In this document: positions 12,855 through 56,218 of the stretch, piece by piece | Layout of the letters: every line of letters starts with the position of its first letter | How positions within the stretch are numbered: position 1 is the stretch's first letter | Source: Hysterangium stoloniferum | Taxonomy: Eukaryota; Basidiomycota; Agaricomycetes; Hysterangiales; Hysterangiaceae | NCBI GenBank assembly: GCA_015178975.1 | Contig: WHVD01000010.1 | Coordinates: forward strand, 1,364,001 to 1,428,000 | DNA: 64,000 nt | Direction: 5' to 3' | Notes under the pieces: generated by a model | Databases searched by the model: none | Told to the model about the DNA's origin: nothing | Seen by the model: the letters and a program-made list of their open reading frames with translations, nothing else | Program-made: the position numbers and the translations under genes

Positions 12855-12859
12855 CACTC

Positions 12860-30233: not shown

Positions 30234-30270
30234 ATGTGATGACCAAATAGAATGTTTTCTTTTACCCATA

Positions 30271-32100: not shown

Positions 32101-33068
32101 GATTGTAATTGGATGCAGTTTCCGAAGAACCACTGCCTATACACTGATGAAAAATGTAGAGCACCTATCCCAAAAAGAAATTGCTTTAGAGGCTAAAATA
32201 CAAATATCTATAGCAAATCCCTCCACGAGAATCTTTATATGTATAATGAAATCACTCTGGTATATTCTCACAAAAAATTGACCATTAAATACCAATATAA
32301 AAGGAGTCTTATAACACTTACTCATTAGGTTGTAATGCATTTTGGAGGATAACCGAAAACTTTAAAAGTTGTTTATCCACTAAAGTATATATATTTATAT
32401 TGTTTGTTGTAAAATTAATATTTAATCAAATTCAGCCTATCAGATAATATTCTGGAGAATAAGGAAATATTAATATTTATCTTGTATCTGACAAAAGTTA
32501 GTCAAACAAACATATATAGATTATCCTTTTGGGGATAAATTCTACAACATGGATTGGTTGGCCAGATAGTTCTGGTTAACTTTCTAAACCAAATAAATTT
32601 AAATTATATGAACTACATTTGAAAGTTTGTATAATATACAAGAGAATGCATCTCATCCCAAGGATTAAGTCATAACCCAAATAATTTTGGTTAACTATAA
32701 TGTTTGTGGACATTTTAAAAGTCATGGAGATACTAGAGAATGTATTTTATCCCAAAGATTAGGTAACAACCCAGATAATCTTGTATAACCATGACATTTG
32801 TGCATATTTTAAGGGAATGTACAAGTCTTAAAGATGAAATTTTGGGTTAATGAAATATAAATTTCTAAAACATGTAGTCATAGCCAGGAGAAATAGTCTC
32901 ACTTAAAAATATGAGGAGTTTTTCATAAAATTTCGTGTATTCAATGAATTGTGACTATCCTCCTTTATCTGTTGAGATAGTGGAAATTTTGGCTCCATAG
33001 TTTTCAAGAAAGACAAAAATACATCAATTTTTATATACACCACTTGACCTGAATCACAATATTTGAGG
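32101..33068. other. Right subterminal region of the transposon
   Basis: About 970 bp, very AT-rich, without a gene. It contains a direct repeat (32642-32812). It should include the promoter of the accessory gene; no clear TATA box was picked out. Confidence 0.55.
32642..32812 (+). repeat. Subterminal direct repeats, about 94-bp period
   Basis: Two diverged copies starting at 32642 and 32736 share GAGAATG, then ATCCCAAGGATTA or ATCCCAAAGATTA, AACCCAAATAAT or AACCCAGATAAT, and CATTTTAAAAG or CATATTTTAAGGG. Possible transposase-binding or accessory-protein-binding sites, by analogy with other DNA transposons. Confidence 0.65.
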
Positions 33069-33155: not shown

Positions 33156-33732
33156 ACAGCCAGACAGACGCCTTACTTCAGACTATTACAATTACATGTT
33201 CAGTCACGCATCATGCATGGGGTCTGAACCCGAACCCATTTGGCCTGTGTCATGCATCATCCGGGTGTTAGGAGCCATGCCTGCGTGGTCTATGAGGTCT
33301 AGGTATCTGTCCGGTGGGTCTGTATAAAATTTTCTTTCCTCAAACAACTGATAAAGTGGCCCATATTCAGGTCGGGAATGTACCGCAGCTCAAAATATTA
33401 GCAGGTGAAGTTTCGGTGATATTTTTGCTCTGAATTCCCCCCAACTTGCTTGGTATATCATCATCTTTGCTAGTCAACGATAAAAGCTGGTAGTCATGCC
33501 GGTTGAGGCACCGATTCTGTTCACGCGGGGTTCTAACCACACATGGAGTCTCCGATGGGTTGATCGTGAAGTTGTTTTAATAGACTAAATGGAAACATAT
33601 GGGCCGAGGTCATTAGAGGCACGGCGTACCGTACTAGTACGGATATTCTGACTATTGAAAAAGGCACCCTGTATGTTGTGGTTATTGTGGGAGAATGAAA
33701 AGTGGATAAACCAATAACATCGTGTCTGCACA
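33156..33732. other. Intergenic, nothing recognised
   Basis: Between the transposon and the 3' end of the F-box gene. No coding or repeat signal. Confidence 0.5.
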
Positions 33733-35525
33733 TCACCGCTTAAATGACGATATCTTTTGTTTCCTGACTTTAAACGTATTGAGCTTCCGTCGCAACGCCG
33801 TCCCCCTTTTACTCTCCGCCGCCCTCGAGGCAACTAAGAAAGGGAGATCATTTTCAACCGCCATCCAAAGTTTACGATAATCCACTATCCGACTCCATCT
33901 CTCATCATCGATGTGCCAGGAGGTCCTCGGGCCACTCTCGATGCAGAGATCGAGCGAAAGCTGCTTTGAGCCGCGAATAAGGCATGATGTACTGCATAAG
34001 CGGCTGAGGAAGAGTGCCACGGGTTTTGAAACTTCCTTTGATATTGGGGAGGTACCGAAATCGATACAATGAATATTAGGGAGGGAGGGTATGGAAATGC
34101 TTGGCAATGAGAGTGGGTCGCTGTACGGAGATGGAGCGGCGGGATCGAGGTAGAGGCCTATGTGGTACAGCCCAGGACAGTGTGTAGCCAACGATACAAG
34201 AGCGGAGAGCGTTAGTCGAGGAGGAGAATCGATGTATGGGTCGGGAGCCAAGTGGAGTTCTGTTAAATAAGGCCATCGCTGCGCAATTTCTTCCAAATCG
34301 CTGTCTGTGAAACAAAGCTCTGAGTGTATTAAATGGAATTCTTCGATGGTTGGACGGGATAGAAGAGGCTTCAGGGTTTCCAAAGTGATTTCACCCGAGG
34401 GAATAAATGAATCGGGATCATTCGGGAAGAGGTCAAAACCAAGAGCGATAAGTGCAGGATAACCTGCGGCACAAAGCTGTAAGAAATTATGTAGAGTGCT
34501 GGGGACTACGAAATCTATGGCATTGATCCAGAGACGGGTCAATCGGGCAGGAAATGTCGCGTTTTGGAAGAGCTTTGTTGCACAAGTGAAGCTGATGTCG
34601 AATATGAGGATATTAAACACAGGGAATGATCCTTCCTGGGGCGAAAAGTCATCGATAATCTCGACATCTTTTATATCTCCTTTGCAATGACCGTAAATGT
34701 CCGAGCGTATCGCTTCGAGGCACGGCAAAGCCGCAACAGTGGCCAGCACAGAGGTCGTAATCCAATACCGAGGGAGGCCTAGCTCCTCCAGTCGTCTCAA
34801 ACTACGCAACAAGTCTAATAATGGAGTTTGTATATGTGCGACTGAGAACGAGGCAGATATCAATAACGAAGTGAGCCGAGGTAGCCTTGACGAACATTCG
34901 TATAGAAATGTGCCGGCTTCTTTGAATGCGTGCTCATCCATCAAATCTGCCTCAATAGAAATTTCTAAATTCGACAATTCAGAGTGCATGAATAACGTCG
35001 CATAGCCAAAGTGGATGCTGTACCATGCCAGATGTTGCAAGTGGGGAAGTAGAATGAGTTTAGGTCGTGCTCGAGCTATTTCAACAAGAACGGATACGTC
35101 AATATCAGCCTCTAATTCACTGCTACCATCGTCTTGATATAGAAGACATCTTATCCGACGCGCATAATAGTCGAATCTTGTCCAGGCACAGGGTAGGATA
35201 CCGGCAGCGGAGTACCTCCACTACAGTCCACCAAAATAATTTAAACGAAATAGAGAACCACAAAGTCAGTTCAGTTTGGAAATATAGAATAAAAGCATGC
35301 ACAGACAGTATACACAGAGTCTTGACTGGCCATATGCATTGGACCGAGCAATTTAAACAAATTAACTGGTTGGTTAATGTACCACCACATTTCATCAAGA
35401 GCGGGCTCCAGCCACGCCTTGCATACTAGTGCGTGATTCAGAGATGTTTCTACATTAAGGCATTTGAAAACAATGGAGGTGATATCAGGTATGTTATGTA
35501 CTCTGTGAGGTGTAGTTGATGGCAT
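33733..35525 (-). CDS. F-box/leucine-rich-repeat protein
   Basis: Two exons, 35525-35316 and 35220-33733, with one 95-nt intron (GTGTAT...CTGTAG), give 565 aa. Residues 1-70 have the shortened F-box usual in mushroom families: HNIPDITSIVFKCLNVET, LNHALVCKAWLEPALDEMW and LFKLLGPM. Exon 2 resumes with WTRFDYYARRIRCLLY and VLVEIARARPKLILLPHLQH, then irregular leucine-rich repeats (RLPRTSLLIS-type segments, LRRLEELGLPRYW, WPYLTELHLAPDPY, HCPGLYHIGLYLDPAAPS) and a basic tail. Expected role: substrate receptor of an SCF ubiquitin ligase. Such genes are strongly expanded in Agaricomycetes. The start is the first ATG before the F-box. Confidence 0.85.
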
Positions 35526-35999
35526 TGTGGGCTGCGCAAACTCCGCCGGGTGCCGAGAACACGCTCCGAATTTGTATCAACTTGTGACAAACATTTGTTT
35601 GATAATTCTCACGCTCTACTTAAATGTCAAAAGCTTTTAAAAAAATGTGAAAGTTTTGAGAACAACAAGCCTATCGGGAACCTCCATATATAAAATAAAA
35701 TGCTGAATAAATAAAAATATGGTAAAATATAGTGAATAGCATAAAAGTGAACATGATAGTGCCGCCACCGCCAGTGGTCACTGGTTCACTGGTCATGCGT
35801 CACGCACGTCTTGGTTTCACATCGATGTCTTCAACATTTAGGCCAGAAAACTTGCAAGTATTAGAGGCGACAGACGACCACTTTAAAGTCTTCGAAGCCA
35901 GATTTCGTTGATACTTTCCCCTGATTTACCTTAATCAATCTTCTATCGGTACCATCTTTGCTGTATTCAAAGCCTCTTCTCCGACACGCGTAGTAGGCG
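35526..35999. other. Intergenic, nothing recognised
   Basis: Upstream of the F-box gene. AT-rich, no further feature. Confidence 0.5.
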
Positions 36000-36350
36000 A
36001 CTCAGATCCAAGTGGAGGGTGGGATGACTGCGGCGTACTTCCACTAATATTCACCAAAAGAAATCCAAAGAAATCGAGAATCATCAAGTCAGGACAATTT
36101 AAGAATAAAACCTAAGCACGGACACTATACATTGAGTCCTTATTCGCCGCATGCATTGGGCCAAGCAATTTGAACAATGCAACTGGCTCGTCAATAACCC
36201 TCCACAGTTCATCGAGAGCAAACTCCAGCCACGCCTTTCACACGAGTGTACTGACTGGGCACGTTTTTTCACCAGCGCGATTGAATTTTTTTGGAAATGA
36301 TATCGAGCCTGTAATGTTATCTGTGAGATGTAGTCGATGTCATTGTGGAT
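36000..36350 (-). pseudogene. Decayed F-box exon-1 copy
   Basis: Minus-strand sequence matches the intron and first exon of the neighbouring F-box gene (compare 35210-35430). Shared pieces include ATGCATTGGGCCAAGCAATT against ATGCATTGGACCGAGCAATT, and GCTCCAGCCACGCCTT. Some of the F-box peptide survives (LLTSQLHCSNCLAQCM for NQPVNLFKLLGPM in a shifted frame), but no LRR part follows. A truncated tandem duplicate. Confidence 0.7.
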
Positions 36351-38015
36351 AACACTAGGGTGTGACCCCACCCAATCACATAAAATGTCCCCTGAGTTTG
36401 AAACCGAGAATGTTATACCTTGAGGTTCTCGAGGCGCTAGGTGCACCGAAAACTTGAGTGGCCATGGAAACTATCGTCCATTTAGTTCTTGGGACCATGG
36501 AATGTTTATTCTCATGCGATGGAGGGATCCCGCCGCTGGCCCCTGCGGTCAAAATTCCCTGCATCTCTAGGACAGAACCCATCCGGATAGGATACGATAT
36601 GAGCAAAGAAAGGGGTGGGTCTTAGTGAAAAAAAGTAAAAATAGAAAGAACTTCGACCGAAAGACTGGAGTGTGGGCCGAGGAGGCGAGGAGCGAGACCG
36701 TTCACAGGGTCCGCGGAAGGGGAGATTAACCAAGGAATGAAGTATAACGAATAAGTTTGGGGATGGTGGTCGGACCCACTGTTCAAGACGACGAGCAGTG
36801 TGCTGCATGGTAAGGTATGTTTCTTGATGTGGTGTGTAGTTCCGACCTTCCAAGAAGGAAGTAGTTGCCGAGTTAATATGCAATGATGTGTGTTTCGGGT
36901 ATTGTGAACCTCAAAATAATCAATTTTTTTAAAAAGGCCAAACGCTGATGTGCTGAGCGAATGCTGACGCGGGATGTCTAAGCTTGTTAGCTTGAGCACA
37001 GAGGGTCATGGTCGTGTCAATATTATGATGTGAACAAACGCAAACACAGTATTCACACTGTTTCTACTTGCAGTGTGAACAGAACTGAGTGGACCTAGCT
37101 GGCCCGACCTTAACTCATCAAGCTGCTCCAAGATCAAATAGAAACAGTTGGCTTCAAACCGCACCCCCAGAGCGGAACACAACAATCCATATTCCGTTTA
37201 CCCAAGCAAATCAGGCGCCGACTTAATGTTCATATGTGATACAAGATTTACACCAAACTCCGAAGAATAACTAGATCCTCAGTAGATACGGTTAATATCT
37301 AGGTACAAATTCATTGCGTTTGAAAAAAGACGGTTGTGGAAGCGAGATTGAGCAATCCAATTTGGCGTATTGGTCCGTTCTGAGAATATTGGCCTCTCTG
37401 CCACGGGTCCTCAAGTTGTATAGGCACACCACTCCACATTGAGATCACAGCAGAGGACGGTGAATAACTGACGGCTATGGGTGACAGGTAGCAAGACGAG
37501 ACGAAAGTAACAATGATTTTGTAAGGTGGAACTTGGTGGCAATCACTTGCAAAGATTACTGGCCCGCTGCCAACAGTAGCTGATCATTGAGTTCCACAAT
37601 ATCTGCTAATATAACGTACGCATTTTGTTAAAGGGAACACGTTGTTCTTCCGAGCGTCACGTAAAGGAAATTGTAATACGTTAAAAAGAAACGTGTAGTG
37701 TTCAACTGCAATGAAAGATTGGGCGTACCGCGAGACTTCACGGCTCCATCCGGTCAGACCTGGAATGCGCGGCAGTGGTTGTGCTAAGATACACATTCTT
37801 GATGAATCCTGTGGTCTTTCTTTGAGTACAATGGGTGAACGACGGGGTTAAGGGAAATCATAGGCGTGGGAAGTGGCCACGGGAAAAGCCTGGTGACTTG
37901 CCGTTCTCAGGCTCCACCGCACTTTAGGCCACTGTTTCCCCTTCTAAGCTCCGCCATTGTGAACACCAACATCCCTCACTCCGAGAAAATTTCCAAACAA
38001 TGATTCCTATCTTTA
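36351..38015. other. Non-coding, nothing recognised
   Basis: About 1.7 kb with short random frames only. No repeat partner found in the window. Confidence 0.5.
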
Positions 38016-38502
38016 ATCGTCTGAAACGACCTTTTATTTTATACTCCGAAGAGCCAGAACCTCTGGGTTCTTTCTGACCCCCCGCAGCAGTTACGGTCTA
38101 ACGGTTCCTTATCGCCTTCAATCGGACTAGTACGTGATACATTCCAATCCAACCCTCAAGAACAAAGCCGCTCTCAGGGTTTCGGCATCAGGGAACTTTC
38201 TCCTCCATAATCGAGTAAGTAATCAACTATCAAATTCTATTGTCCACCGAGACTCACTCGTCTTTTACAGCATCGTTGCCGTCCACGGGTTGGATGGACA
38301 TCGTGAAGCATCGTGGACAACAGAAAACGGCAGTCTTTGGCTTCGCGATTTCTTCCCGCAGGATGTGCCTGCCACCAGGATTTTGATGTATGGTTATGAT
38401 GCCTACACCCAGAGCGCGGCTGCATCATCCACGCAGAACTTGAATCAAAGCCTGACAGGCGTCAACATTGAATTCCAGCCAGACAGATATGACAGAAATT
38501 AA
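38016..38502 (+). pseudogene. Truncated alpha/beta-hydrolase (SERAC1/DUF676-like N-terminus)
   Basis: The first open segment (38016-38129) contains SSYGLTVPYRLQSDY but has no ATG in frame. A GT-AG intron (38130-38270, 141 nt) joins it to 38271-38502, reading IVAVHGLDGHREASWTTENG, then LWLRDFFPQDVPATRILMYG and YDA. This is the N-terminal hydrolase block found in fungal serine-esterase proteins, often fused to patatin, NACHT or TPR modules. After YDA the family similarity stops and a stop codon follows within about 35 residues. Missing start and missing catalytic Ser/His region point to a gene fragment. In fungi this module is often part of NLR-like immune proteins, but nothing here shows that. 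Confidence 0.6.
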
Positions 38503-40516
38503 CCCACGTGTTTGAGAATAATCCCTCCAAGGCTGTGTGCAATGAAGATAATAGGCCGTTTCTGAAGTACTTCCTATGAGCGGAAATCACAAGTTCGCTA
38601 TATATGAATTGTACAAACCCTAGTATCTGCAATTCGTCTGAGAGAAGCCAAGCAGGTCACATCACTAAGTTGGGATCGTCTTCTCAGCTCACTTCCCGGC
38701 CCCACTGTCCGCTCCCCCGTTCTTTCTAATTCCTCTACAACTCCTGACTCCCTTCTGTTTTCGATTCAAGTATTCCTGATTATCTAAATGAATGCCATAA
38801 TACCCGTAAACCCATATCCGTAAATGAGGTACTAAACATCCCACAAACAGCGCGCTTCAGGCGTCACCTACAAAGTAGACGGCATCTCACCCTCAGGATA
38901 AGCCAGTCGCCGGATAAGACAGTAGCCTATATTACTCATTGAAAGATATTGTGTCTTGGGGCCTCTATACCTGGGAACCGTATACTACCTGATGTGGCCG
39001 GCCGGTGTGATAGTGAACGTGTGGGGAAAAGAGTCTTAGGCGACGAAAGAGAAATGTTCGGTGAGGATGATTGAATACAAGTGTGGGCGAGTTGCGATAT
39101 AATGGAAGATAAGTTGGCTGATGATCGAATATACTGACCAAATTATTGACCGCTATACACCCAGGAACCACCCAGTGCCATCTTTGCTATTATACCACCT
39201 AGACGATACGGTTAATCAAAACTTGAAAATAGATGTAATGAGAATCTAGACTTGTTCTGTGATGAATTCGTCTAGATCCAATCCTTGGAACTGCGTCGTT
39301 CTATATACTGACCATGCATCGTTGGGTTTCCTGAAATCGTATTGATACTTGGTTCCTGGTGTCGTGAAACCCATGAAAGACGCAAAAAACCACGGGCGTT
39401 CTCTATGACCTGAGACTTCAATCGTGCCAACGAAGTCGGCAGCCAGACGTTCGATCTCTTTCCCAGCAGAAGAGTAAATATAAAGCTCATCTATTACCTA
39501 TGTACAAGCCACGCAAAACGCATGTTTTTTGTGTTCGTTTTTTTCTGAATAGGAAATAATGCCGTATTCCGCATCTCGGATGGTATGCCGTGTCGGAGTC
39601 CACTGTTAGATACTGACCGACCTCAAAACATAAAGCAAGGGGAACAGCGAAACAAAAGAACTAAGGGAACTTGGAAGAGTGACATGAGCTTGAATGATGG
39701 TCAGAAAATGTTGATATTTTACCAAATTTTCTAAGCATTTTTTGAACTGAGAAACTGTTTGAAATTCCTAGTTTTACTGGTGTTGGATTTTGGGAATCTG
39801 ATATGCGAGCAACAAGGAGCACGGACTATACGCTTATATTAGTAAGCAGTTACTAGGCGTATACATATAAGGACGATACATGTATTGTAGTCCTTATCCG
39901 TTTGTAACGAGACTCACTTCGTATTACAACAACTGGATTGTAAGAGGTATATACAAGTGACCGAGTCTTGACCATGGGAAAGATGACTTTCAGTCGTACT
40001 TTCTGAGGACTGTAGAAGACTTTTGAGTGTCTAGTAACCGCCTGGTACATGTACAGAAGGTCACGGTGGTAGATGAGATGACCAACGTCACGTTAACCGA
40101 AGGAAGGATTAATGGGATCAGACTTGGAGAAAATACAAACACCTTGAGAGGTGGTTGTTTTACGACCCGACTGCAAGGCCCATCTGGTGTATGCCCGTGT
40201 CGATTGGGAAAGTGCGTTACAGACAGAATTGAGTAAACCCTAGACTCTCTTTTGTTTGACCGAGAAGCTGCCACAACTAAAAGTCTTCTACAAAACTTTC
40301 TGCAAAATCTTGTGCAGTCTTTTACAAAGAGTACAGGCTACCGGCAAGGACGTTGGTAGCGGTAGAAATAGAAAAGGATAATAGATGGCAAACAAGCTTT
40401 GGTTAACGCGCGCCACTCGTAGGCCATACCGTTCGAATTGATTCTTGTGCAATATGGGGTTTCGGGCGCTTATTGCAATATATTGACCGTTTAAAGCGCC
40501 CAACTGACTCATCAGC
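38503..40516. other. Intergenic, one dispersed repeat
   Basis: About 2 kb upstream of the DUF6535 gene. Only the 125-bp repeat copy at 39504-39628 is recognised. Confidence 0.5.
39504..39628 (-). repeat. Dispersed repeat, copy 2
   Basis: Inverted partner of 621-746. Shared blocks include TAACAGTGGACTCCGACA and GAGATGCGGAATACGGCATT. Confidence 0.8.
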
Positions 40517-43500
40517 ATGGCTTCGCAGTATGCACAAGACCTTAGCCGCGCCGAATCACAGATACCGTTTGTCTCAGGTATTAAATCAAAGTTTACACTT
40601 ATTCTAAACTGAGGCACGTAAGCAGAGCAACAAGGAACGGCCAACCGTCAACCTTCGTCTACCAATGTTCCCTCGAGCCCAACCGAGGCGGCATCCAGTG
40701 GCCATAATGGCTTAGAAAGCGAGGACGATAACCCCTATAGCAAGCACGTTGAATCAGATTCAACCATATGGTCATTATATCTGAAGGAAACGGAGAAAGA
40801 GGACAAAGAGCTTGCCAACTCATTGCAAGTTGGTGTCGACGAGCTTCTAATATTTGTGCGTAGAATTCGGTTTCCTTCATAGATATTCAATTAATTCACA
40901 CCTTTTCAGGCGGGTTTGTTTGGAGCAATTCTTACCGCCTTCCTGATTGAAAGCAGGAAGAGTTTGCAGGTAGATCCTGTTCAGGAAATCCTTCAGGCGC
41001 TTCAAAGTCACTTCGCTGTACCTACCTCTCAGCCTTTTCAAGTCTCCAAATCATCCCTTATTGTCAACTATTTGTGGTTCATTAGTCTCAGTCTCACTCT
41101 CTTCAGTGCTCTTTGTGCTGTACTTGCAAGAGAATGGCTGGCGAAGTATATTCCTGTATCCCCCGGAAGTCGCTCAAGTGATGCATGTGAACGTCTCCTT
41201 CGTGTTCAGAGAGCACAGAAATGGCACCTCGAATCAGTTGTTACTGGAATCCCGCTTTTGATTCAACTAGCTCTCTTCCTTTTCTCTGCAGGTCTCGTCT
41301 TATTTACCTGGGATAACAGTGTAGCGTTGGGCGTTCTTATGCTTTTTTTGACCATATTTGGAATCGTTCTATATATACTTGGCACCGTTTTTCCCTTGTT
41401 GTCCCCCGCTTGTCCCTTTCAGACAACAGCGTCACGGTTTTTCCCAGTCGTCTCTGCAAGCGCAAAGTATGACTCGTCCACACCAGACCATTGTGGGTCT
41501 TCGCCACCAACAAGGACGGATACATTTAGAATTTCTAAATGGCTACAAAGCCTTGCTCGGTTCTTCGCCGAATTGCATGGCAAGCCTCCACGGCCCGAAC
41601 TTGAAGCTGATGTCCTGGCATGGGTGATAGCAAACTCCACATCGGAGGAGGCAGTTAACGAGGCAATTAGGGCTGTAGCAGGTGCTAAACAATGTGAACA
41701 GTTGCGGATTGCCTTGTGCCAACGAGCCGTCACGGAGAAATTGTGCAAAGTTTTGGAGAATTGCTTTCACCTCACGGCAGGTCCCGTCACTATCCGTGAT
41801 GCAGCACTTGCGGAAGTTTCTCTCCTTGCAATGTCACGAGTCCTATCGCCGCCAACAGACAAACTCATAAACAAAGAGTACCTTACGCCCTTCAATACTC
41901 TCCTACACGTTGGGAGACCATTACATCGGTTGGACAATTTAGATCCTTGCGTGAAGACATTGGGGTGGGCGGTTCATATTAGTATTTGGGTAAATATGGA
42001 CGATGACGGTGACCGAGAGGTCCCGACAGACCCACACATTGAAACGGTGGCCACCATGGGTGCAGCACCATACGAGCGAAAGACGTTGATGACGGCGACG
42101 ATCGATGGAGCACTGTCAGAAAAGGAGGGCTTACGTGTAACCTGCGAACGGTTCATATTGGCATATTGGCATCTTCGTAGGGATTTTTTCCATGGCTCCG
42201 GCAAAGAAACTGATTGTTGGGCAGCGGATTGCCGAACAATGGTAAAAGAAAAGGGTTTAATGGCCGGTAAACTGCCTATACCATGAGTCAAAACACACAT
42301 ACCTAATTATTATCACAACAGGAAAAGAAAAAGAGTGGTTGAAGAAAAGGGTTAAAAAAGCAGGTGGTGCTGTGAAACAATTACTAATGGAATGTGGTAA
42401 GAAAATGCCAAGTAAAGGAGGAGTACGATATAATATGCACCGGTGTTCAGCTAGATTCCCGACTGGGATGGTCGGTGCCATTCCCGACATTGTGGCACTG
42501 TTGAAGGACTCTGACTCGCACGTTCGATCAGGGGCAGTAGCGGTCCTGGGGAAGATTTCAGAGCAAGGTACGGTGTGTGACAATGGGATGGGAATCCAGC
42601 TGACATTTGGCCGCAGTCGAATTTCGAGCGGCCATTGGGTGTATCACTCCCGACATTGTTGCACTGTTGAAGGACTCTGACTCTGACGTTCGATCAAGCG
42701 CAGTATCGGCCCTGGGGAAGCTTTCAGAACAAGGTGCGGTGTGACAATGGGATAGGAATTCAGCTGACATTTGGCCACAGTCGAATTTCGAGCGGCCATT
42801 GGGGGTGTCATTCCCGACATTGTTGCGCTGTTGAAGGACTCTGACCGGCGCGTTCGATCAAGAACAGGATCGTCCCTGGAGAAGGTTTCAGAACAAGGTG
42901 CGGTGTGTGACCATGGGATGGGAATCCAGCTGACATTTGACCACAGCCGAATTTCGAGCGGCCATTGCCGGTGTCATTCCCGACATTGTTGCACTGTTGA
43001 AGGACTCTGACTCTGACATTCGATCAAGCGCAGTATCGGCCCTGGGGACGGTTTCAGAACAAGGTGCGGTGTGACAATGGGATGGGCATCCAGCTGACAT
43101 TTGACCACAGTCGAATTTCGAGCGGCCATTGGGGGTGTCATTCCCGACATTGTTGCACTGTTGAAGGACTCTAACTGGCACGTTCGGTCAAGCGCAGTAT
43201 GGGCCCTGCGGACGGTTTCAGAGCAAGGTGCGGTGTGTGACATTAGGATGGCAATCCAGCTGACATTTGACCACAGCCGGATTTCGAGCGGCCATTGCTG
43301 GCGTCATTCCCGACATTGTCGCACTGTTGAAGGACTCTGACTCTTACGTTCGATCAAGCGCAGTATGGGCCACAGGGAAGGTTTCAAAGCAAGGTGCGGT
43401 GTGTGACATTAGGATGGGAATCCAGCTGACATTTGACCACAGCCGAATTTCGAGCGGCCATTGCCGGTGTCATTCCCGACATTGTTGCACTGTTGAAGGA

Positions 43501-46500
43501 CTCTGACTCTGACATTCGATCAAGCGCAGTATCGGCCCTGGGGACGGTTTCAGAGCAAGGTGCGGTGTGTGATATTGGGATGGGAATCCAGTTGACGTTT
43601 GACCACAGCCGAATTTCGAGCGGCCATTGCGGGTGTCATTCCCGACATTCTTTCACTGTTGAAGGACTCTGACTCGGGCGTTCGGTCAAGCGCAGTATCG
43701 GTCCTGGGGACGGCTTCAGAGCAAGGTGCGGTGTGACAATGGGATGGGAATCCAGCTGACATTTGACCACAGCCGAATTTCAAGCCACCATTGCGGGTGT
43801 GATTCCCGACATGGTTGCACTGTTGAAGGACTCTGACTCTTACGTTCGATCAAGCGCAGTATGGGCCACAGGGAAGGTTTCAAAGCAAGGTGCGGTGTGT
43901 GACATTAGGATGGGAATCCAGCTGACATTTGACCACAGCCGAATTTCGAGCGGCCATTGCGGGTGTCATTCCCGACATTCTTGCACTGTTGAAGGATTCT
44001 GATAGGTATGTTCGATCAAGCGCAGTATCGGCCCTGGGAAAGGTGTCAGAGCAAGGTGCGGTGTGTAACATTGGATAGGAATCCAGCTGACATTTGACCA
44101 CAGCCGAATTTCAAGCAGCCATTGCGGGTGTCATTCCCGACATGGTTGCACTGTTGAAGGACTCTGACTCTTACGTTCGATCAAGCGCAGCCTCAGCCCT
44201 GGCGAAATTTTCAGAACAAGGTGATCCAATAAATCTTGTCGAAGAATCTTTCTCAAGTCTCCACAGGGGAGTTTCTCCCTCTCGTCAGGGCTGAAATACG
44301 TGCGGCTGTAGGGTTGTCGGTGAAAGGAAAGCCAACGCTGCGTGGGTCGCTTTTAATCCCACTTCAAAGTATTCCCATTCCCCCATTCCCCCCTCTCATT
44401 CTGATCGATACTGCGGTAATCTAGCAAGTGTCCCCGATATGCGAGAGCCCTCCGGATTATCTACCCGTCCTCTGTCGTCCTCTGTGGATCTTTTGTATAG
44501 TACTGATAGTGTTTCGCGTCATGAAGACATCAAGATCATTCAATGCGCAACAATTGCATGTATGTGAAGACCGGTCACATTATTCATTCACTAATTTCCA
44601 TCCCACCTTAAAGCGCGGAATTTTTACCTTCCCTTATCCAGATTCGACCTCAGAGCGCTACAAGGCAAGCTCGCTCTGTTAACAGTGGTCACTGCTCTCC
44701 ATACATGTGGTCCGTGCACCGATTTCTCATAAACTGGCATGATTCATGGACTTGCAGACGCATTTGGAACCGCCATTACCGCCGCCATTCCCGACGTTGT
44801 TACACTGTTGAAGGACTCTGACATGCACGTTCGATCAAGGGCAGTATCGGTCTTGGGGACGGTTTCAGAGCAAGGTGGGGTGTGACAATGGGATGGGAAT
44901 CCCGCTGATATTTGACCACAGCCGGATTTCGAGCCCCCGTTGCGGTTGTCATTCCCGACATTGTTGCACTGTTGAAGCACTCTGACTGGCGCGTTCGGTC
45001 AAGCGCAGTATCGGTCCTGGGGACGGTTTCAGTGCAAGGTGCGGTATGACATTGGGATAGGAATCCATCTGACATTTAACCACAGCCGAATTTCGAGCGG
45101 CCATTGCGGGTGTCATTCTCGACATTGTTGCACTGTTGAAGGACTCTGACGATTACGTTCGATCAAGCGCAGTATGGGCCCTGGGGAAGCTTTCAGAGCA
45201 AGGTGCGGTGTGTAACATTGGGATGGGAATCCAGCTGACATTTGACCACAGCCGAATTTCGAGCGGCCATTGCGGGTGTCATTCCCGACATTCTTGCACT
45301 GTTGAAGGACTCTGATTCTGGCGTTCGATCAAGTGGAGTATTTGCCCTGGGGACGGTTTCAGAGCAAGGTGCGGTATGACATTGGGATAGGAATCCAGCT
45401 GACATTTAACCACAGCCGAATTTCGAGCGGCCATTGCGGGTGTCATTCTCGACATTCTTGCACTGTTGAAGGACTCTGACTCTGGCGTTCGATCAAGAGC
45501 AGTATGGGCCCTGGGGAAGCTTTCAGAGCAAGGTGCGGTGTGTAACATTGGGATGGGAATCCCGCTGACATTTGACCACAGCCGAATTTCGAGCGGCCAT
45601 TGCGGGGGTCATCCCCGACATTGTTGCACTGTTGAAGGACTCTGACTGGCGCGTTCGATCAAGGGCAGTATCGGCCCTGGGGAAGCTTTCAGAGCAAGGT
45701 GCGGTATGTGACATTGCGATGGGAATCCAGCTGACATTTAACCACAGCCGAATTTCGAGCGGCCATTGCGGGTGTCATTCTCGACATTCTTGCACTGTTG
45801 AAGGACTCTGACTCTGACGTTCGATCAGGAGCAGTATCGGCCCTGGGGAAGCTTTCAGACCAAGGTGCGGTGTGTAACATTGGGATGGGAATCCAGCTGA
45901 CATTTGACCACAGCCGAATTTCGAGCGGCCATTGCGGGGGTCATCCCCGACATTGTTGCACTGTTGAAGGACTCTGACTGGGATGTTCGATCCAGGGCAG
46001 TATCGGCCCTGGGGAAGCTTTCAGAGCAAGGTGCGGTATGTGACATTGGGATGGGAATCCAGCTGACATTTGACCACAGTCGAATTTCGAGCGGCTATTG
46101 CGGGCGTCATTCCCGACATTGTTGCACTGTTGAAGGACTCTGACGATTACGTTCGATCAACGACAGCATCGGCCCTGGGGACGGTTTCAGAGCAAGGTGC
46201 GGTGTTTGACAATGGGATGGGAATCCAACTGACATTTGACCACAGCCGAATTTCGAGCGGCCGTTGCGGGTGTCATTCCCGACATGGTTGCACTGTTGAA
46301 GTACTCTGACTCTTACATTCTATCAAGCACAGTATCGACCCCGGGGAATGTTTTGGAGCAAGGTGCGGTATGTGATCATGGGATGGGAATCCAACTGACC
46401 TTTGACCACAGCCGAATTTCGAGCGGCCATTGCGGGTGTCATTCCCGACATTCTTGAACTGTTGAAGCACTCTGATTCTGGCGTTCGATCAAGTGCAGTA

Positions 46501-47431
46501 TTTGCCCTGGGGAGGGTTTCAGAGCAAGGTGCGGTGTAACATTGAAATAGGTATCCAGCTGACGTTTGACCATAGCCGAATTTCGAGCCGCCATTGCGGG
46601 TGTCATTCCGGACATTCTTGCACTGTTGAAGCACTCTGACCCTTACGTTCGAGCAGGCGCAGTATGGGCCATAGGGAAGGTTTCAGACCAAGGTGCGGTG
46701 TGACATTGGGATGGGAATCCAGCTGACATTTGACCACAGCCGATTTTCCAGCCGCCATTGCGGGTGTCATCCCCGGCATTGTTGTACTGTTGAAGCACTC
46801 TGACTCTTCCGTTCGATCAGGCGCAGTATCGGCCCTGGGGAAGCTTTCAGACCAAGGTGTGGTTTGTGACATTGGGATGGGGATCCAGGTGACATTTGAC
46901 CACAGCCAAATTTCGAGCGGCCCTCGCGGGTGTCATTCCCGACATTGTTTCACTGTTGGAAGACACATATTTACACGCCCAAACAGAGGTTGTTGACTTG
47001 CTCGTTAAGCTAGCAGCTCATGGTGTGTGCCCTTGACGCGCAAGTTGAAACCTTCCCCTCACCCATGTTTTCAAAGAGCGCTTTCGTGAAGCTATTATTG
47101 GCTGTAACCTACAACATCACTGTATATCCCTTGTTCATGCCGACAATGACGCAGTCATTTCAGCTGGTGGAAAATTGTTTGTAGCTTTTGCTGACTATGG
47201 TAAGCTTTAATTCTTTGCATCATTGACTCCTTTCACCGTCTTGCAGGTTACCTTACCAACATTAAGCTGCGGATAGTCCTCTCTGCATTGTGCTATCTAT
47301 ATTTACCCACACCACCTCTGCAACATCATTGTGTGCTGATTGAAATTCTCTTGAAATCTAGTAAGTGTTTGTATCCTGTAGTTGTAATAAATGCTGATCT
47401 AGGTAGCTTGTGTAAGCCACACCATTCTTGA
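40517..47431 (+). CDS. DUF6535 membrane protein with 25 HEAT repeats
   Basis: Exons: 40517-40577, 40623-40855, 40910-42266 and 42322-42396, then 25 HEAT exons of exactly 117 nt (first 42451-42567, last 46906-47022), then 47077-47199, 47247-47360 and 47403-47431. The frame closes at about 1638 aa. Residues about 60-265 are the DUF6535 domain (STIWSLYLKETEKEDKELAN, VGVDELLIF/AGLFGAILTAF split by an intron). It has four likely membrane segments near 96-114, 147-171, 207-232 and 236-262. Residues about 265-575 are helical. The rest is HEAT/PBS-lyase-like repeats, each reading AEFRAAIAGVIPDIVALL, KDSDxxVRSSAVSALGKLSE and Q. Predicted topology: membrane anchor with a large solenoid. The last three exons are less certain, and an LTR lies 186 bp downstream. 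Function unknown. Confidence 0.82.
42451..47022 (+). repeat. Tandem exon-intron array, 25 units of about 166 bp
   Basis: Each unit is a 117-nt phase 1-1 exon encoding one 39-residue HEAT repeat plus an intron of 47-49 nt (GTGCGGTGTGTGACATTGGG to TTTGACCACAG). Exon starts are 42451, 42617, 42781, 42947, 43111, 43277, 43443, 43609, 43773, 43939, 44104, 44758, 44922, 45086, 45252, 45416, 45582, 45748, 45914, 46080, 46246, 46412, 46576, 46740 and 46906. No exon has an indel or stop, while introns vary by 1-2 nt. One intron is 537 nt (44221-44757). Confidence 0.93.
44221..44757 (+). other. Enlarged intron inside the HEAT array
   Basis: Between HEAT exons 11 and 12 the usual 49-nt intron is replaced by 537 nt of unrelated sequence, still starting GTGATCC and ending CTTGCAG with phase kept. 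HEAT exon 12 is the most diverged of the interior units (DAFGTAITAAIPDVVTLL). This may mark an insertion or the seam between two merged arrays or genes. Confidence 0.6.
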
Positions 47432-47617
47432 AGTTGCTCATATTTTATGCTTCATGATATATTTCATGGGTGATATTTCTTCTGAGCATATTCAGGCTTT
47501 GATCCTGCAAATGGATAGACATGGACTATTAATAACATTATAATTTACAATATAGTTTGTGAGTGGATGAATGGTGAAAATTTTACCCACTACAGTACAT
47601 ATGGCTTATGCCAGATC
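47432..47617. other. Short gap between gene and LTR nest
   Basis: 3' flank of the DUF6535 gene. No feature. Confidence 0.4.
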
Positions 47618-47931
47618 TGTTAGGATCTTATCATTTTTGGACCTCCATGACTTGTTTTTTACTAGAAAACCCTTGCTGTTTTGTTATCAGAGTCTTCTCA
47701 TGTCAGTACCCCTTGCAGTGTTCCTGATACTTGTTTATATTTCACTCCCACTCTATTCCATTTCTGCTTTATCTGTTCCTCCATTTCCATCTCTATGCAT
47801 ACTCTTATTTTGCCACCTAGTATTGTTTCTTAGTACTGTACATTAGTTTCTACAGTATCTCTCCCCACCCTGTCATCACTTCCCTGTGATCCATCCTACA
47901 CTTCACTGCTTTGATTGGCCTTCTGATCACC

Positions 47932-49196
47932 TGTAATGTATTCAGGGGTTTCTCTTAGATAGCTCAATATATGCTATAGTGTCACAGAGCCTCAACAATA
48001 AAACAAGCAAAGGTCCAGTAATTTAAATACTGATAGATTAATAAGCTGCACTATTAAGCTTAAACAACTCAAATCAATGCTTATTTTGATTATTGAAAGG
48101 TTCAATAGAACAATATATGACTCTTTTAGCAAATAAAATAACTATTCCTTGAGAATAGGGGCTAGAAGCTGAGTATATATGCAGTAACTTAGCAGAGACT
48201 TGATATAAAGCTTCAGATTCTTGTATGCTTATTTGTAACTATTAATAGTTATTTAACAAGGTGTTAAATAATTTATTAGTAGAGAAAATAATGTGTCTTG
48301 GAGTATTTGAGTGCTTGTACTTGATTAATTCAATAAACTTAGGGCTGGGCCTTGAATAATCTAGTATTGGCAGGGAAATTCAGTAAGGATATTTAGATAC
48401 TTATTAGGTTTATTATGTAATTAATAAGCCTAAAGGGTAGCTATAAGGCTGGGGGAACTTAGATGATTAGCTAAGTTCAAGAGTACTGACAAAGATTCAA
48501 GATTCTGCAAGTGTAGGTGCTTGCAGTTAGTGTATCAGACTCAGGGTATTATTGTCCTTAGGATGATTAGATAGGCTTCTGAGCTGTGCAGTAAAATATG
48601 TGTGTGATAGATTGATTTTATTAGAAACTTGGCCCTCCTTATATACATTTTGATAACTAAATATTTAATCATTTATTTATTTTATAAGATCATTATTTAG
48701 GTCATAATGACCTCATATTCTACTTATTTTTTACCCTTTATTTACCATGTGATTCCCCTCTCTGAGATAAGGGTTCCAACCTTTGGCTTGAACATGAAGG
48801 TTCAAGGCCATGGTTCCAGGACAGAAGCAATTGATGAGTTGGCAGAATTAAATAATGACTTGAGTAGTCACATCCGTGACTTGTGTGATATCCCGACACT
48901 GGAGACTTATCTAATAGGTCATGTGACTCCAAAAATGCACACATTGGAGCAAGCAATGTGCTGAAAGGCAATAACTAAGTAAATAAAATATAAATAATTA
49001 GTTAAAAATTATAATAAATTAACTAAGACATAATAGCATAATATGAGCTCATATATGCTATTATTATGTGAAGTTAAAAGGAACTAAGCCTTATATTTCA
49101 CAATAGAATATAATAAAAATACAATAAATTCGAGAAAATATTAAATAATTCAGAGAAAATTAAGAGAACTTTATGAGATAAAGCTGATACCTCACA
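47932..49196 (-). mobile_element. Solo LTR, family D
   Basis: On the minus strand it reads TGTGAGGTATCAG to CCTGAATACATTACA (1265 bp), flanked by the perfect target duplication TCACC (47927-47931 and 49197-49201). Its ends and core promoter resemble those of LTR B (ATTACA terminus, ATGTATATAAGGAG core), so D and B are related families. It interrupts the family A LTR. No coding capacity. Confidence 0.85.
48639..48645 (-). promoter_or_regulatory. TATA box of LTR D
   Basis: Minus-strand ATGTATATAAGGAGG, sharing the core with the TATA region of LTR B2 (60806). Confidence 0.6.
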
Positions 49197-51094
49197 TCAC
49201 CTGTCTTGATGTCCATGTATGTATGTATATATACTATGATTCTTCAGTTCAAAAATTCATTTAGATTAGTCCTTCTTAGTCTCTCACTTTCCTTTTCCCT
49301 GATATACCCTAAATGAGTGGTCTTTGGCAAGCCATGACCCTCTATCCTTTGACTCTTGATGATTTGGCCCTCTATGTTACGACCAGAAAACCTGCCAGAC
49401 TCTGGGCACTAACTTATATACACTCGCACCCTACATGCACTAGTTATCAGTTTACTAGAATACCCGCCAGATTCTGGATGTCAGACCTGTCCATGCTCGA
49501 CCTTTGTTACTTCATGTATCAGTCACCAGAATACCTGCCAGAACCTGCACCTATCTGTCTCTGACCCTGTCCCACATACTAGTCACCAGACCCCGCTTGG
49601 AAAACCTGACAGCTCTCTAACTGAGCCCCATTCCTGTTATGGTCAAATGACCTGTCACATTTTGGACTCCACTCTGCTCTGTTCCATTCCTAACACCAAG
49701 TTTGGTGTTTACTTATCTTGTTTCATGCTTACTAGTTTAGATTTCATTATTACTGGATTTGGTATGATATACATTCCACAATCTATATAGTCTGGGAGAT
49801 GTAATGTACTAGCCTTATTTTAATATTATTTTCTGGAAAAAGGAGTCCAATGCTCTATCAAAGTGTGCAAATACTCAATTCACTGCAAGGTAAAATAATT
49901 TAAGTATTTGATATTAATCAGTGGCAGCCTAAATAGACTTAGAACCCCTGAAGTCAAGAGTTTACTTGAATATATGCACCCTACTTCGCAAAGAAGGTTT
50001 TGAGAGCTGCTTATGTAAGCTTGTTCTTTTTCTGTAAAAACAACCACTAAAATATGAATAACAATTTACTGATTCCAAAACTAGATTCAACTTCGATTCT
50101 AGCTCGTTTATATATATTTTATATTATTTATCAAACAGTAAAAATATAAATAAACAGGTCAAAAGATCAATTATAGAATAAAACCATATTTGACAATATA
50201 TGCTTTATTTTAAATTAATCTACTGGATCTACTGTGATACTAACTTATCAGGATCTTAATGTAGTCTTAATGATTCTGCAAGAATATTCTCAGTATTTAA
50301 CTGTAAGCCAAACCAGGAGAAATTAGAATTATATTCTAATTTCAAACAATGAAACAACAATTTATTTATTACTTGGTTGATAGCCAACAACTCTAACCGA
50401 GGTGGCAACTGATTCCAACAACTTAAATAGAAGTTAGAAAAAGTAATAAAGCCAGCTACTCAATTAAGAGGTGGCAAGAGGGAACAAATAAGTCAACAAC
50501 TCAGATTGAGGTGACAAGGTGTGAAGAGTGGCAGAAGTTCTGACCATTCTATATACAAAGAAATGAGTAGAAAGGAAGGATATTGACCTATTCGGTACAA
50601 TATAAGAGGAAGTGAGAGAAAGAGCACGAGATGACGAAGGAGTCAACGAGTGCGATGGTTCAAGTGGAGGCCTCGACTGTTATAGTTCGAGGCCAGAAGT
50701 ATTCAGTAGTTCAGATAATACTACCTATGTGGTAGCTGACACGTTACCCTGATCACCGCTCGTAGTAGACCTAGTTTGTGTCTTACGAGTGGTGGTTCTT
50801 GGGTTAAAGTGTGTCTGAGTTCTAATTGGTGCTGAGTGCACCCACAAGTATACACAATGCTTCGAACTAATGAAATATGCAATATTCGAAGAATATGAAA
50901 GATAGAAAAAATATGAATAGAATATGTAAAATATAAATAAAATAAAAGGAGTGTTTTACCACAATGAAACTGTGGTAAAAGCATACTCCTCACACAAGGT
51001 GAACAACAGATCAGTCAACAACTCAGATTGAGGTGACAAGGGATCTGATTGGGCCAACAACTCTGATAGAAGTGGCAAGAGTTTCCAACAGCTC

Positions 51095-52547: not shown

Positions 52548-55500
52548 TTAATGTCGTGGAAGATTTGGATATTTTTGGTGAAATTCTTCGATAAGGTCGA
52601 AAGCATGTTTGAGATCTTGAGAGCCTAACCATGAAGTTTCTTCGTCTGTTCCTTCGTAACCTAACCAAGCAACTAAATATCATAATGAATCCTTATATAT
52701 TTTATCAAATTTTGAATCCAAAATTTCTTGAATTTCATATTCGGGTTCTTCTTCAACATAAATCGGAGGAGGAGGAGGTTGTTTTCGATTTGGGAAAGTA
52801 TTGGGATAAAATGGTTCTAACATCGAAACATGAAAGACGGGATGAATTCCTTTGAGGTGATTGGGGAGTTTTAATGTATATGAATGAGATCCTGGTTGAG
52901 CAATGATTTCAAATGGGCCTAATAATTTTCCCGATAATTTTTTCGATGGTCGAGTCGTTCGAATAAAGTCGGATCGTACAAAGACTTGAGAATGGATCAG
53001 AAAGTCGAAAGACTCTTTTCGATGTATGTTGAAATATTTTGATAACGTTTTTGCACTTTCTGGATATTTGATTTGAGATGTTTATGTAGAGCTTCGAGAT
53101 CTGTCGTATAATCGTGAGCTAGAGCGGAAGCTAGATCTTTTTCAGGGTGAATTTCTAACAGGATGATAACCTTTATTAGCAAAAAATGGCGTTTCACCAG
53201 TTGTTTCGGAAGGTGCATTGTTGTAAGCAAATTCGGCTAAAGGAAGTAATTCGGCCCAATTGTCTTGTTGATAATTAGAATATATTCGTAAATATTGTTC
53301 GAGGGTTTGATTGACTTGTTTGGTTTGTCCATCACCTTCAGGATGATATCCGGAAGTGAAATGTAATTTCATGTCGAGTGCTGTTCCGAGAGATCGAAAG
53401 AAATGTGACATGAATTCAGATCCTCGATCAGAAGTTACATGACTAGGGACTCCATGTTTTGAAAAGACATGTAATACGAAAAGTCGAGTGAGTTCGGGAG
53501 CATTGATCGTAGTATAAGTTGGAATGAATATTGCTTGTTTCGAAAGTCGATCGACGATTACGAGTATTGAGTCGTAACCATTCGAGGTCGGTAATTGTTC
53601 GATAAAGTCCATCGAGATCGAATGCCATGGTCGAAGAGGGATCGGAAGTTGCTTTAGTAATCCAACGGGTCGATGTCATGGAGTTTTTGATTTTATACAC
53701 ATTACACATGATTGAATAAAACTTTGAATATCTTGTCGGAGTCGGGGCCAAAAGAAATCTCAATATATTGTTTGATACGTTTTCGTTTGACCGAAATGGC
53801 CTGCAGTAATATGATTGTGTCGTGCTTGAAGAACTCAAAGTCGGAGGGTTTGATAATCGGGAATGTAAATTCTGTTTCAGAAACATAAAAAGTCTTGTTC
53901 GTTCTTTTGCCAATCTTCTTCGGTATTGTCGGAAATCTGTCGAATCTTGTCGAGAGTAAATTGATCTTCTTTTTGAGCTTTAAATATATCTTTCAATAGT
54001 TGATCCGTATCCATAATAAGAGTAGCTTTTCTTGCTATTGGAAGATAGTATGTTGCACGCAAGGAAGCTTGAATTTGCTCATTCATAAATACTGGTCGAA
54101 GATTAGTCAGATTCTTTTTCGAGTAGTCGGGTTCATTTGGATAAATGTCGTTTCTTTGGGAAAGAACATCTGTTTTCAAATTTAGTTTTCCTGGTCAAAA
54201 TCGAATAATCAAATTAAAGGTCAATAAATATTCTGCCCATCGAGCTTGTCGTCGAGACAGAATTTGAGTTGTTGCAAAATATTCGAGATTCTTGTGATCC
54301 GTTAAAACTTCAATTGGTTCTTTTGTTCCTTTGAAATAATGTCGCCAAATTTTGAAAGATTTGAATATTGCTAATAATTCTTTATTGTAAGTGTCGTAAT
54401 TGATTTTGGAGGTCGAAAGTGTTCTTGAATGATAAGCAACTGGATGAATTTCGTTATTGGGAGTCTGCATAGAGAATATTGAGGCTATAGCATGATCAGA
54501 AGCGTCAGTTTCGAGTATAGGTTTATAATCTGGATTCCAATAAATTAAAATCGGAGCTGTAGTAAATTCTTTTTTCAAATAGTTAAATGCATGTTGACAT
54601 TTTTCATCGAAATGCCATTGAACCTTTTTTCGAGTAAGTCGAGTCAACGGTAAAACAATTTCAGAATAACTTGAAATAAATCTTCGATAGAAATTCGCAA
54701 ATCCTAAAAATGATTGAATGTCACAGACTTTTTGCAGTTCGGGCCAGTCTTGAATAACTTTGATTTTTTCTTCGTCCATATATACGCCTTGAGGAGAAAT
54801 AACATATCCTAGAAACTCGACACTGGTTTTATGAAATTCGCATTTTTTGGGTTTTGCAAATAATTGATTTTGTCGAAGCCGTCGAAGAACTTCTCAAACT
54901 TGTTGTAAATGTTCTTCGAGATTGTCGGAAAATATTAGTATGTCGTCGAGATAGATAATTACCCAAATATCAAGTAAATCTGAAAATATTTCATTCATTA
55001 ATTGTTGAAAGGTTGCTGGAGTGTTGCATAGTCCAAAAGGTATAACCAAGTATTCAAAAGATCCATATCGAGTCCGAAAGGCTGTTTTCCACTCATCTCC
55101 TGGAGCAATCCTAACTAAATTATAGGCGCCTCGGAGATCGATTTTTGTAAAATATTTCACCGTTCGAAGTCGATCCAAAAGATCTGGAATTAAAGGAAGT
55201 GGATATCGATTTTTCCGTGTGATTTTATTAAGTCCTTGATAATCGACGCAAAGTCGTAGGCTTCCGTCTTTCTTCTTAACGAATAAAATCGGTGCGCCGG
55301 TGGGAGATTGCGACGATCGAATAAACTTCTTCGAAAGGTTCTCTTGGAGATATTCTCGTAGCACTTGAAGTTCTGTCTCGGATAACGAATAGATCAGACC
55401 CATAGGTGGAACAGTTCCTTCTTCTAATGGGATAGCATGATCATAACTTCGATGTTGAGGTAAAGCTTCAGCTTCTTTTTTGTCGAAAACATCTGAGAAG

Positions 55501-56201
55501 TCAGAATATTTGGTCGGAACGTTCAGTATGTCGAATGATGTCGAAGTCGTAGTTTTTGCACCAGAGGCCTTACAAGTCTTGAAAGATTCATCACAAATGA
55601 AAACCACAAAGGTTTGAGAGTCTTTTGCTTTCGCAGCTTGTAAGAAAGTCTTTTGATTGACTATGTTGATATTCGGATTAACAGTCTTGGATTTCAATTC
55701 TTCATGGATTTTCTCAGATGTCGATGAATGACTCGCCGAGGTCGAAGCATGCTTCTCTTCCGATAACGTTTCAATTGACGGTTGAATCAGATTCGGATTT
55801 GTCGAAGGTGTCAAAGTAGGTTCGAACGATATATGGCCAGATTGCCAGTCAATCACAGGATTTTGCTTCAGCCAGTTGAGTCCTAATACCACTTGACAAG
55901 ACGAGTCAAGATTGGTCAGAAAGAATTGTAATTCTTGAATTTGTCCGGATGGAAAGTAAACTTGTAATGTAGTCGTATATGTGATTTGTCCCGATGTCGG
56001 AGTCGATCCATCAATTAATTTTAATGATAACGGATTTTTCAATTGGTTGAAAGATAGATTGTTTTGTTGTGCAAACGTTTTGTCCATAAAAAGATGACTA
56101 GATCCTGAATCAATTAATGCTTTTATTTTTGGAATTTTTTTTGATTTAAGTTCAATAATTAAAGAATGAAATATTTTCAGATTTACTTGATATTTGGGTA
56201 A
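52548..56201 (-). pseudogene. Gypsy pol (protease, RT, RNase H, integrase, chromodomain)
   Basis: Minus strand, one main frame from 56201 to the stop at 52548. Protease has [13 protein letters not shown] has [24 protein letters not shown] block 4 and [13 protein letters not shown] with the YxDD box. RNase H has LETDASDHAIASIF and LTDHKNLEYF. Integrase has the HHCC region (HNHITAGHFG, CVMCIKSK) and the D,D,E positions in SMDFIEQLP, TSDRGSEF and NQTLEQYL. The C-terminus has YEIQEILDSKFDKIY and WLGYEGTDEETSW, a chromodomain-like end. Six in-frame TGA codons (54894, 54195, 53877, 53760, 53676 and 52680) and two compensating frameshifts around 53160-53045 inactivate it. At several stops the family has Arg, so CGA to TGA is likely. 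Gag is absent. Confidence 0.92.
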
Positions 56202-56218
56202 TTATCTATCTCGATGCG

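Follow-up and report, generated by a model that had tools for sequence, protein, structure and literature searches.

A DUF6535-HEAT gene of Hysterangium stoloniferum with near-identical repeat exons and a hypervariable codon pair: a candidate membrane-anchored recognition protein

What is known of non-self sensing in fungi rests mostly on the NOD-like receptors (NLRs) and het genes of ascomycetes. In fungal NLRs with highly conserved repeats, concerted evolution homogenises the repeats while a few positions on the surface diversify, as described in excerpts of two studies (PMC4986451, PMC12222747), and HEAT is a major NLR repeat type in the Sordariales according to part of a third (PMC12258605). 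Here we describe a gene of the basidiomycete Hysterangium stoloniferum that resembles these systems in its evolution and is built from other parts. It lies at 40517-47431 (+ strand) of a 64,000-nucleotide stretch of contig WHVD01000010.1 (hereafter the window; contig C2 in our numbering), within the one genome read, an assembly of 111 Mb in 554 contigs, and encodes a DUF6535 membrane-type domain followed by two arrays of HEAT units that differ most at two adjacent codons. With little better than even confidence, we read it as a member of a large, diversified family of membrane-anchored recognition proteins that is HNWD-like in its working and is not an NLR, for which allorecognition is one of several possible uses.

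As far as the excerpts describe the NWD/HNWD NLRs of Podospora anserina (het-d, het-e, het-r), the features shared with them are near-identical repeats, few hypervariable positions, which lie on the predicted binding face, several paralogs, and changes in repeat number, here between paralogs (PMC4986451, PMC12222747). In contrast to those genes, the repeats are HEAT and not WD40, there is one repeat per exon, the window gene has two arrays and a linker, and the DUF6535 membrane domain takes the place of the N-terminal effector and the NACHT/NB-ARC. The parallel with HNWD/NWD drawn in a first-pass annotation of this DNA holds for the repeat regime only: judged by sequence, the resemblance is one of evolutionary regime and not of membership, with no NACHT, NB-ARC or HET match seen. 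The N-NACHT/HEAT fungal NLRs, as partly described in PMC12258605, share the C-terminal HEAT solenoid in a receptor candidate, whereas the window protein has a membrane-type domain and no NACHT match. We would not file it as a fungal NLR/STAND protein, as it has no nucleotide-binding domain match; 38 NACHT matches are present elsewhere in the same genome. In TALE proteins, which carry repeat-variable di-residues, long near-identical arrays likewise differ mainly at two adjacent residues, but these proteins are bacterial, bind DNA and are not HEAT, and no homology is claimed.

The hypervariable site is at codons 22 and 23 of the HEAT unit, which in the 24 regular units of the window gene encode, in order, SH, SD, RR, SD, WH, SY, SD, SG, SY, RY, SY, MH, WR, DY, SG, SG, WR, SD, WD, DY, SY, SG, PY and SS. 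This list is exactly that of the first-pass annotation, except that the 25th unit proved to be degenerate, with the pair LH in register and not YL. Amino-acid entropy across the 24 units reaches 2.37 bits at codon 23 and 1.86 at codon 22, the two most variable of 38 codons (median of the 36 others, 0.70), and the earlier view that only these two residues vary needs widening, since codons 27 and 35 (1.55 bits each), 30 (1.41) and 34 (1.36) vary too. Nucleotide diversity is 0.43/0.56/0.49 at positions 1/2/3 of codon 22 and 0.68/0.49/0.16 at those of codon 23; the remaining codons have 0.116/0.120/0.146, four-fold sites 0.113 and introns 0.110. Diversity at the first two bases of both codons is thus roughly 4-6 times that of introns or four-fold sites. 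The unit exons have a mean pairwise nucleotide identity of 85.5%, a high internal conservation like that of the NWD/HNWD repeats.

The gene looks intact in the splice model, with an open frame from the ATG at 40517 to the TGA at 47431, 36 exons, 35 introns (all GT-AG, 42-56 nt) and 1732 amino acids (aa), and its domains follow each other as DUF6535, a region with no Pfam match, 11 HEAT units, the linker, 13 regular units, a degenerate unit and a short tail. The features, with the evidence for each in brackets, are as follows.

40517..47431, + strand: whole gene, 36 exons, 1732 aa (splice model)
40517..40577, + strand: exon 1, start codon and N-terminal tail (splice model)
40626..40855, + strand: exon 2, in which DUF6535 begins (Pfam match, splice model)
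40910..42176, + strand: exon 3, bulk of the DUF6535 membrane domain and the Pfam-less region after it (Pfam, hydropathy, dN/dS)
42225..42266, + strand: exon 4 (splice model with paralog-inferred intron)
42322..42396, + strand: exon 5, basic linker toward the solenoid (splice model)
42451..44220, + strand: HEAT array 1, 11 units, introns 47-49 nt (unit cutting, splice model)
42516..42521, + strand: example of the hypervariable pair, unit 1 codons 22-23, Ser-His, 65 bases after the unit exon start and recurring in each unit
44267..44709, + strand: inter-array linker, exons 44267-44368, 44425-44559 and 44614-44709 (76-98% identity in 15 genes; no Pfam match)
44758..47022, + strand: HEAT array 2, 13 regular units at 44758-46856 and the degenerate terminal unit at 46906-47022 (splice model, Pfam)
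47077..47431, + strand: C-terminal exons 47077-47199, 47247-47360 and 47403-47431 with the stop (splice model)
33266..49802, + strand: stretch collinear with contig C32, 90-98% identity, two window-only breaks (alignment)

The coordinates, the DUF6535 domain and the HEAT repeats, all proposed beforehand, proved real. DUF6535 (PF20153) is matched at aa 69-231 with 155.8 bits against a curated cut-off of 23.9 (E 1.3e-45), and the HEAT profile PF02985 with E 4.8e-52 (1.4e-63 for array 2 alone); together with the two-helix unit predicted by AlphaFold, this profile match places the units among HEAT repeats. Of the 25 repeats counted in the first-pass annotation, 24 are regular and the last is degenerate, and the array is split by a 537-bp segment between units 11 and 12. 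The suggested four-helix membrane anchor agrees with the prediction of DUF6535 with four strongly hydrophobic segments (aa 94-112, 152-170, 211-229 and 235-253, from hydropathy). In the 558 aa ahead of the units, Pfam gave only DUF6535 and the sub-cut-off matches HlyIII (0.032) and CAMSAP2 (0.22); the inter-array linker gave no Pfam match and the tail a single one below cut-off, CwfJ_C_1 (0.0086). DUF6535 aside, the array matches are of HEAT/ARM type only, among the families listed (25 of 27 and 25 of 46). A single-sequence AlphaFold model of exon 3 had a predicted local distance difference test score (pLDDT) of 46 and was not used.

All 24 regular units are single 117-nt exons with symmetric phase 1 on both sides, followed by introns of 46-54 nt (47-49 nt between neighbouring units). 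The abundance of short introns, like DUF6535 itself, points to a mushroom-type basidiomycete. Each unit is a frame-neutral exon, so its recombinational gain, loss or move keeps the reading frame. The 48-nt intron 42177-42224 is inferred from paralogs, and the window copy can also be read straight through there; GT...AG ends are found in all 15 paralogs aligned, and a first gene model lacking this intron was dropped because the equivalent segment holds an in-frame stop in 9 of the 12 paralogs checked. The segment between units 11 and 12 (44221-44757) was also considered as a gene-breaking insertion, which we reject as it recurs in the 14 paralogs with a cuttable linker. A pseudogene was rejected in view of the open frames, the few stops and a ratio of nonsynonymous to synonymous substitution rates (dN/dS) below 1 in the membrane exon, where it is 0.26-0.57 against 15 paralogs (computed on 40910-42265, including the 48 bases later assigned to the intron).

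The fungus carries dozens of such membrane-type HEAT proteins, with units that are near-copies of one short exon. A profile search of the genome returned 75 DUF6535 matches, made exon by exon and thus not a gene count. When the 30 best were examined together with 1.5 kb of flank, HEAT-unit exons followed in 29; the 166-base unit has at least 551 matches. The exception among the 30 is the top-scoring match of the genome, L009 (G000:C441:1292790-1296380), with no HEAT-unit exons within 1.5 kb downstream, possibly an ancestral or a different architecture. Pattern scans of genome and viral contig collections for relatives confirmed none of 27, 2 and 83 stretches. For comparison within the genome we took 17 stretches, the window and 16 others, from which 420 units were cut out and 381 kept (39 were incomplete, gapped or contained a stop). 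The linker was obtained by a spacing rule in 15 of the 17, window included, and not from C79x and C224, both partial; in these 15 genes it occupies the same place, at 76-98% identity. Counting the degenerate last unit, the units before/after the linker number 11/14 in the window, 11/16 in C32, 10/14 in C200, 14/21 in C157, 11/16 in C2b, 11/15 in C2c, 18/14 in C121, 14/15 in C377, 16/16 in C1a, 11/14 in C1b, 2/13 in C1c, 11/14 in C24 and 12/11 in C212b; C517 has 26 before and at least 15 after, its array reaching the edge of the stretch, and the C533 stretch ends ahead of the linker. Array 1 of the paralogs thus ranges from 2 to 26 units and array 2 from 11 to 21. Two members, at G000:C1:4143721-4150500 and G000:C224:509000-517900, look decayed, with few units and in-frame stops.

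The hot spot recurs across this family, in which units resemble each other within and between genes and the three-codon block 21-23 holds the most amino-acid diversity. Of the 38 codons, 23 is among the three most variable in every one of the 15 genes with 8 or more usable units, and codon 22 is among the first seven in 13 of them, the exceptions being C1b (rank 21) and C1c (rank 12). The diversity peak at codons 22-23 relative to introns and four-fold sites is also found in 11 tabulated paralogs, most weakly at codon 22 of C1b. In a more distant paralog, C545 (11 + 12 units), the most variable codons are 22 (3.46 bits), 27 (2.61) and 23 (2.43), followed by 29 (2.24) and 34 (2.23). Over the 381 units the pair takes 67 forms, led by SD (105), WR (34), WH (27), SG (27) and SY (24), and codon 22 is mostly TCT (172) or TGG (104), mainly a Ser/Trp two-base exchange. 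The nearest relative of a unit is in another gene for 203 units and in the same gene for 140, with 38 ties.

Turnover is seen most directly against the close copy on contig C32, which is collinear with window positions 33266-47934 and 49196-49802, two stretches being present only in the window (about 165 bases at 35118-35282, and about 1.26 kb at 47935-49195). Identity between the two is 97-98% immediately upstream and in the gene outside the repeats (pre-unit exons 97.2%, linker 97.1%, tail 98.0%) and 90-95% further out, and the tail region 47023-47431 shows 97.6-98.0% identity to C32, C200 and C2b. Units at the same position of array 1 have a mean identity of 90.8%, and only 2 of 11 share their dipeptide; in array 2, counted from the 3' end, 5 of 14 do. 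With 11 + 16 units against 11 + 14 and mostly different dipeptides, the copies differ in number and order of units, end units tending to hold their place and inner ones not. Near-identical units, a hot spot shared across paralogs and this turnover support the earlier proposal of repeats evolving in concert around an amino-acid hot spot. C32 is either an allele or a recent duplicate, the latter being somewhat likelier: the RNA polymerase largest-subunit profile gives three main loci and one weak partial match, which suggests a collapsed assembly. An allele was rejected as proven, because window pieces 29000-32500, 11000-14500 and 55500-59500 have no C32 match among the best candidates scored, a test limited by the richness of these pieces in multi-copy DNA; a probe from C32 matched a multi-copy element.

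Per-codon rates were estimated on a tree of 356 units from which codons 21-23 had been left out. At codon 23, nonsynonymous change exceeds the synonymous rate of that codon (beta 7.05, alpha 2.35, p 2.7e-7), and the excess persists when double substitutions are allowed (beta 6.05, alpha 1.72, p 1.2e-6); the dN/dS check proposed in the first-pass annotation thus came out as expected at codon 23 and not at codon 22. Replacement is also in excess past the corrected threshold at codons 15 and 35, and significant constraint is confined to codons 4, 16 and 19, with the core Leu16 strongly kept (p 1.6e-10). Among ten codons refitted with bounds, allowing two-base changes greatly improved the fit at codon 22 only (gain 143), where the double-substitution rate is 1.4 against at most 0.08 at the other nine; in earlier fits, those for codons 8, 21, 23, 25 and 27 had fallen below the simpler model, and the rate was at most 0.10 at the codons other than 22 whose fits did not fail. 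The transition/transversion ratio is 0.48 at codons 22-23, 1.1 at other exon sites and 1.5 in introns, and repeat-induced point mutation (RIP) or deamination was rejected as the source of variation because the hot codons are transversion-rich. In within-gene shuffles, codons 21, 22 and 23 are mutually linked (z 7.4-12.1), and their linkage with 13 other variable codons is at most z 3.6 (21 with 14; 3.0 for 23 with 27), a pattern that may reflect either the swapping of very short tracts or repeated changes toward the same favoured states. Stops occur in 6 of the 420 units (one each in C200, C157, C1c and C79x, two in C224, none in the 25 of the window); neutral simulation on the same tree gave about 23-26% (standard deviation 13-19 points, 20 runs).

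A single unit, modelled with AlphaFold from an alignment of the 24 window units, has helices at 2-19 and 22-37 (pLDDT 91, predicted template modelling score 0.51), and the hot codons are therefore predicted to lie at the turn into the second helix, helix B. The nearest solved structures by sequence include designed armadillo proteins with target peptides, and alphaRep, whose unit of 31 aa is shorter than the HEAT unit here. The alphaRep proteins are artificial HEAT-like binders with the same two-helix repeat; their randomised positions 18/19, 22/23, 26 and 30, as given in PMC3754942, correspond in our reading of the alignment to unit codons 22/23, 26/27, 30 and 34, and in one crystal complex described there both partners bind via the concave faces that hold the randomised residues. 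Variability is higher at these six codons than at the remaining 32 (p 0.010). The first-pass annotation asked whether the hot positions line one surface of the solenoid; this alignment and the place at the turn into helix B fit such a surface, the helical-face test less so. Unlike the window protein, alphaRep is artificial and has no membrane domain.

In the mechanism we propose, DUF6535 would anchor the protein in the membrane, and the varied residues, together with helix B codons 27, 30 and 34, would line the inner side of the solenoid as a surface for recognition. Whole-exon turnover and exchange of the codon block 21-23 would create new surfaces, of which selection would retain those recognising changing partners such as non-self hyphae, mobile elements, viruses or bacteria; binding would then be relayed to the membrane side through DUF6535.

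Several observations weigh against the recognition reading. Away from the hot codons, the average diversity of the unit exons is close to that of introns, and constraint on the units therefore appears weak apart from some core residues. Codon 22 has no excess over its own synonymous rate (beta 7.1, alpha 6.3, p 0.7), and recombination between units breaks the single-tree assumption of the codon tests. Linkage decays with distance at other codons too (mean z 4.1 below 4 codons, 1.0-1.8 from 8 codons), so codons 21-23 are not alone in being weakly linked to the remainder of their unit. With codons 22 and 23 removed, the alphaRep-equivalent codons are no longer significantly more variable (p 0.11), and one of them, codon 26 (alphaRep 22), is nearly fixed. 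The helical-face test is weak on helix B (p 0.08 for 22-37, 0.03-0.04 for 24-37) and similar on helix A (p 0.03 over 15 genes; 0.54 in the window). Pfam showed no NACHT, NB-ARC, HET or recognised effector domain in the window protein, and the otherwise full-looking C200 and C157 each have one stop-bearing unit.

Some of these points would suit a mutation or conversion hot spot with no role in recognition, at which error-prone or template-switching events at codons 21-23 are copied round a drifting family. Four adjoining bases (22.2 to 23.2) make up the diversity peak, codon 22 changes in the manner of a two-base exchange, its four-fold diversity within TCN (0.208) is higher than at 20 of the 22 other codons listed, and diversity at the remaining unit codons is close to that of introns. 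We nevertheless consider this explanation unlikely, as the third base of codon 23 is near background (0.16 against 0.68 and 0.49 at the first two), stops are rare, the DUF6535 exon is under purifying selection, and deamination or RIP does not explain the transversion-rich hot codons. The proteins might instead be structural or housekeeping membrane scaffolds under relaxed constraint, expanded in a genome rich in transposable elements, with variation that would adjust stability or the choice of partner and would not have conflict as its driver. The sharp placing of the hot spot, its recurrence over 15 genes and the strongly kept Leu16 make us doubt this strongly, despite the richness of the window in multi-copy elements and the stops in units of C1c, C224, C79x, C200 and C157.

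A different kind of recognition would be a modular reader, whose extended ligand (a peptide, a glycan or a nucleic acid) would be read element by element, with the hot pair of one HEAT unit touching each. The string of dipeptides would then spell out a sequence, much as in TALE or armadillo proteins, and would not make up one mosaic surface. In favour of such a reader are the pairing of neighbouring hot residues in each unit, the recurrence of certain dipeptides along long arrays, and the designed armadillo proteins with target peptides among the nearest structures. We still find it improbable: HEAT surfaces usually bind folded proteins, no one-to-one code was seen, though no search for one was made, and alphaRep binders varied at the same positions bind folded proteins (PMC3754942). 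Within the preferred reading of a membrane-anchored recognition family, a bolder version is a long shot, namely a non-NLR fungal receptor class with a two-level generator of diversity, combining frame-neutral HEAT exon cassettes with a tri-codon block exchanged largely independently of the sequence around it. Any of the 24 regular unit exons could be skipped in splicing without loss of frame, since all are nearly identical and symmetric in phase 1, and one locus could thus yield many receptor isoforms per mycelium. Dscam of insects is a somewhat similar many-isoform locus.

Several repeated elements surround the gene. A multi-copy element at 37311-38653 has 12 near-full copies of its part 37311-38445 on other contigs (73-80%), besides copies by the family genes on C32, C2 and C200, and the piece 38439-38653 adjoins many of these copies in inverted orientation. 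The segment 47935-49195, absent from the same place on C32, has at least about 40 other genome copies at 86-95%; a transposon probably inserted there recently, a short way downstream of the gene. Near-perfect minisatellites lie at 59954-60206 (19 bp, 13.3 copies) and 60473-60764 (20 bp, 14.6 copies), and a tandem repeat at 25593-25759 (40 bp, 4.2 copies). Remains of retrotransposons are found at 54195-56087 and 62755-63579, with minus-strand matches to reverse transcriptase and RNase H and, at 62755-63579, a chromodomain match barely above cut-off.

DUF6535 is listed by Pfam as of unknown function. In the open-access literature we met it (DUF6535/PF20153) in one paper, as a table row in a Flammulina expression study, and our searches, only two of which named the family, listed no description of a DUF6535-HEAT family. 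If our reading is true, this fungus would have a separate recognition system, a large membrane-type HEAT family with one hypervariable site per exon. The family would parallel in nature the design of the alphaRep binders, and its exon-per-repeat layout would make receptor diversification directly testable.

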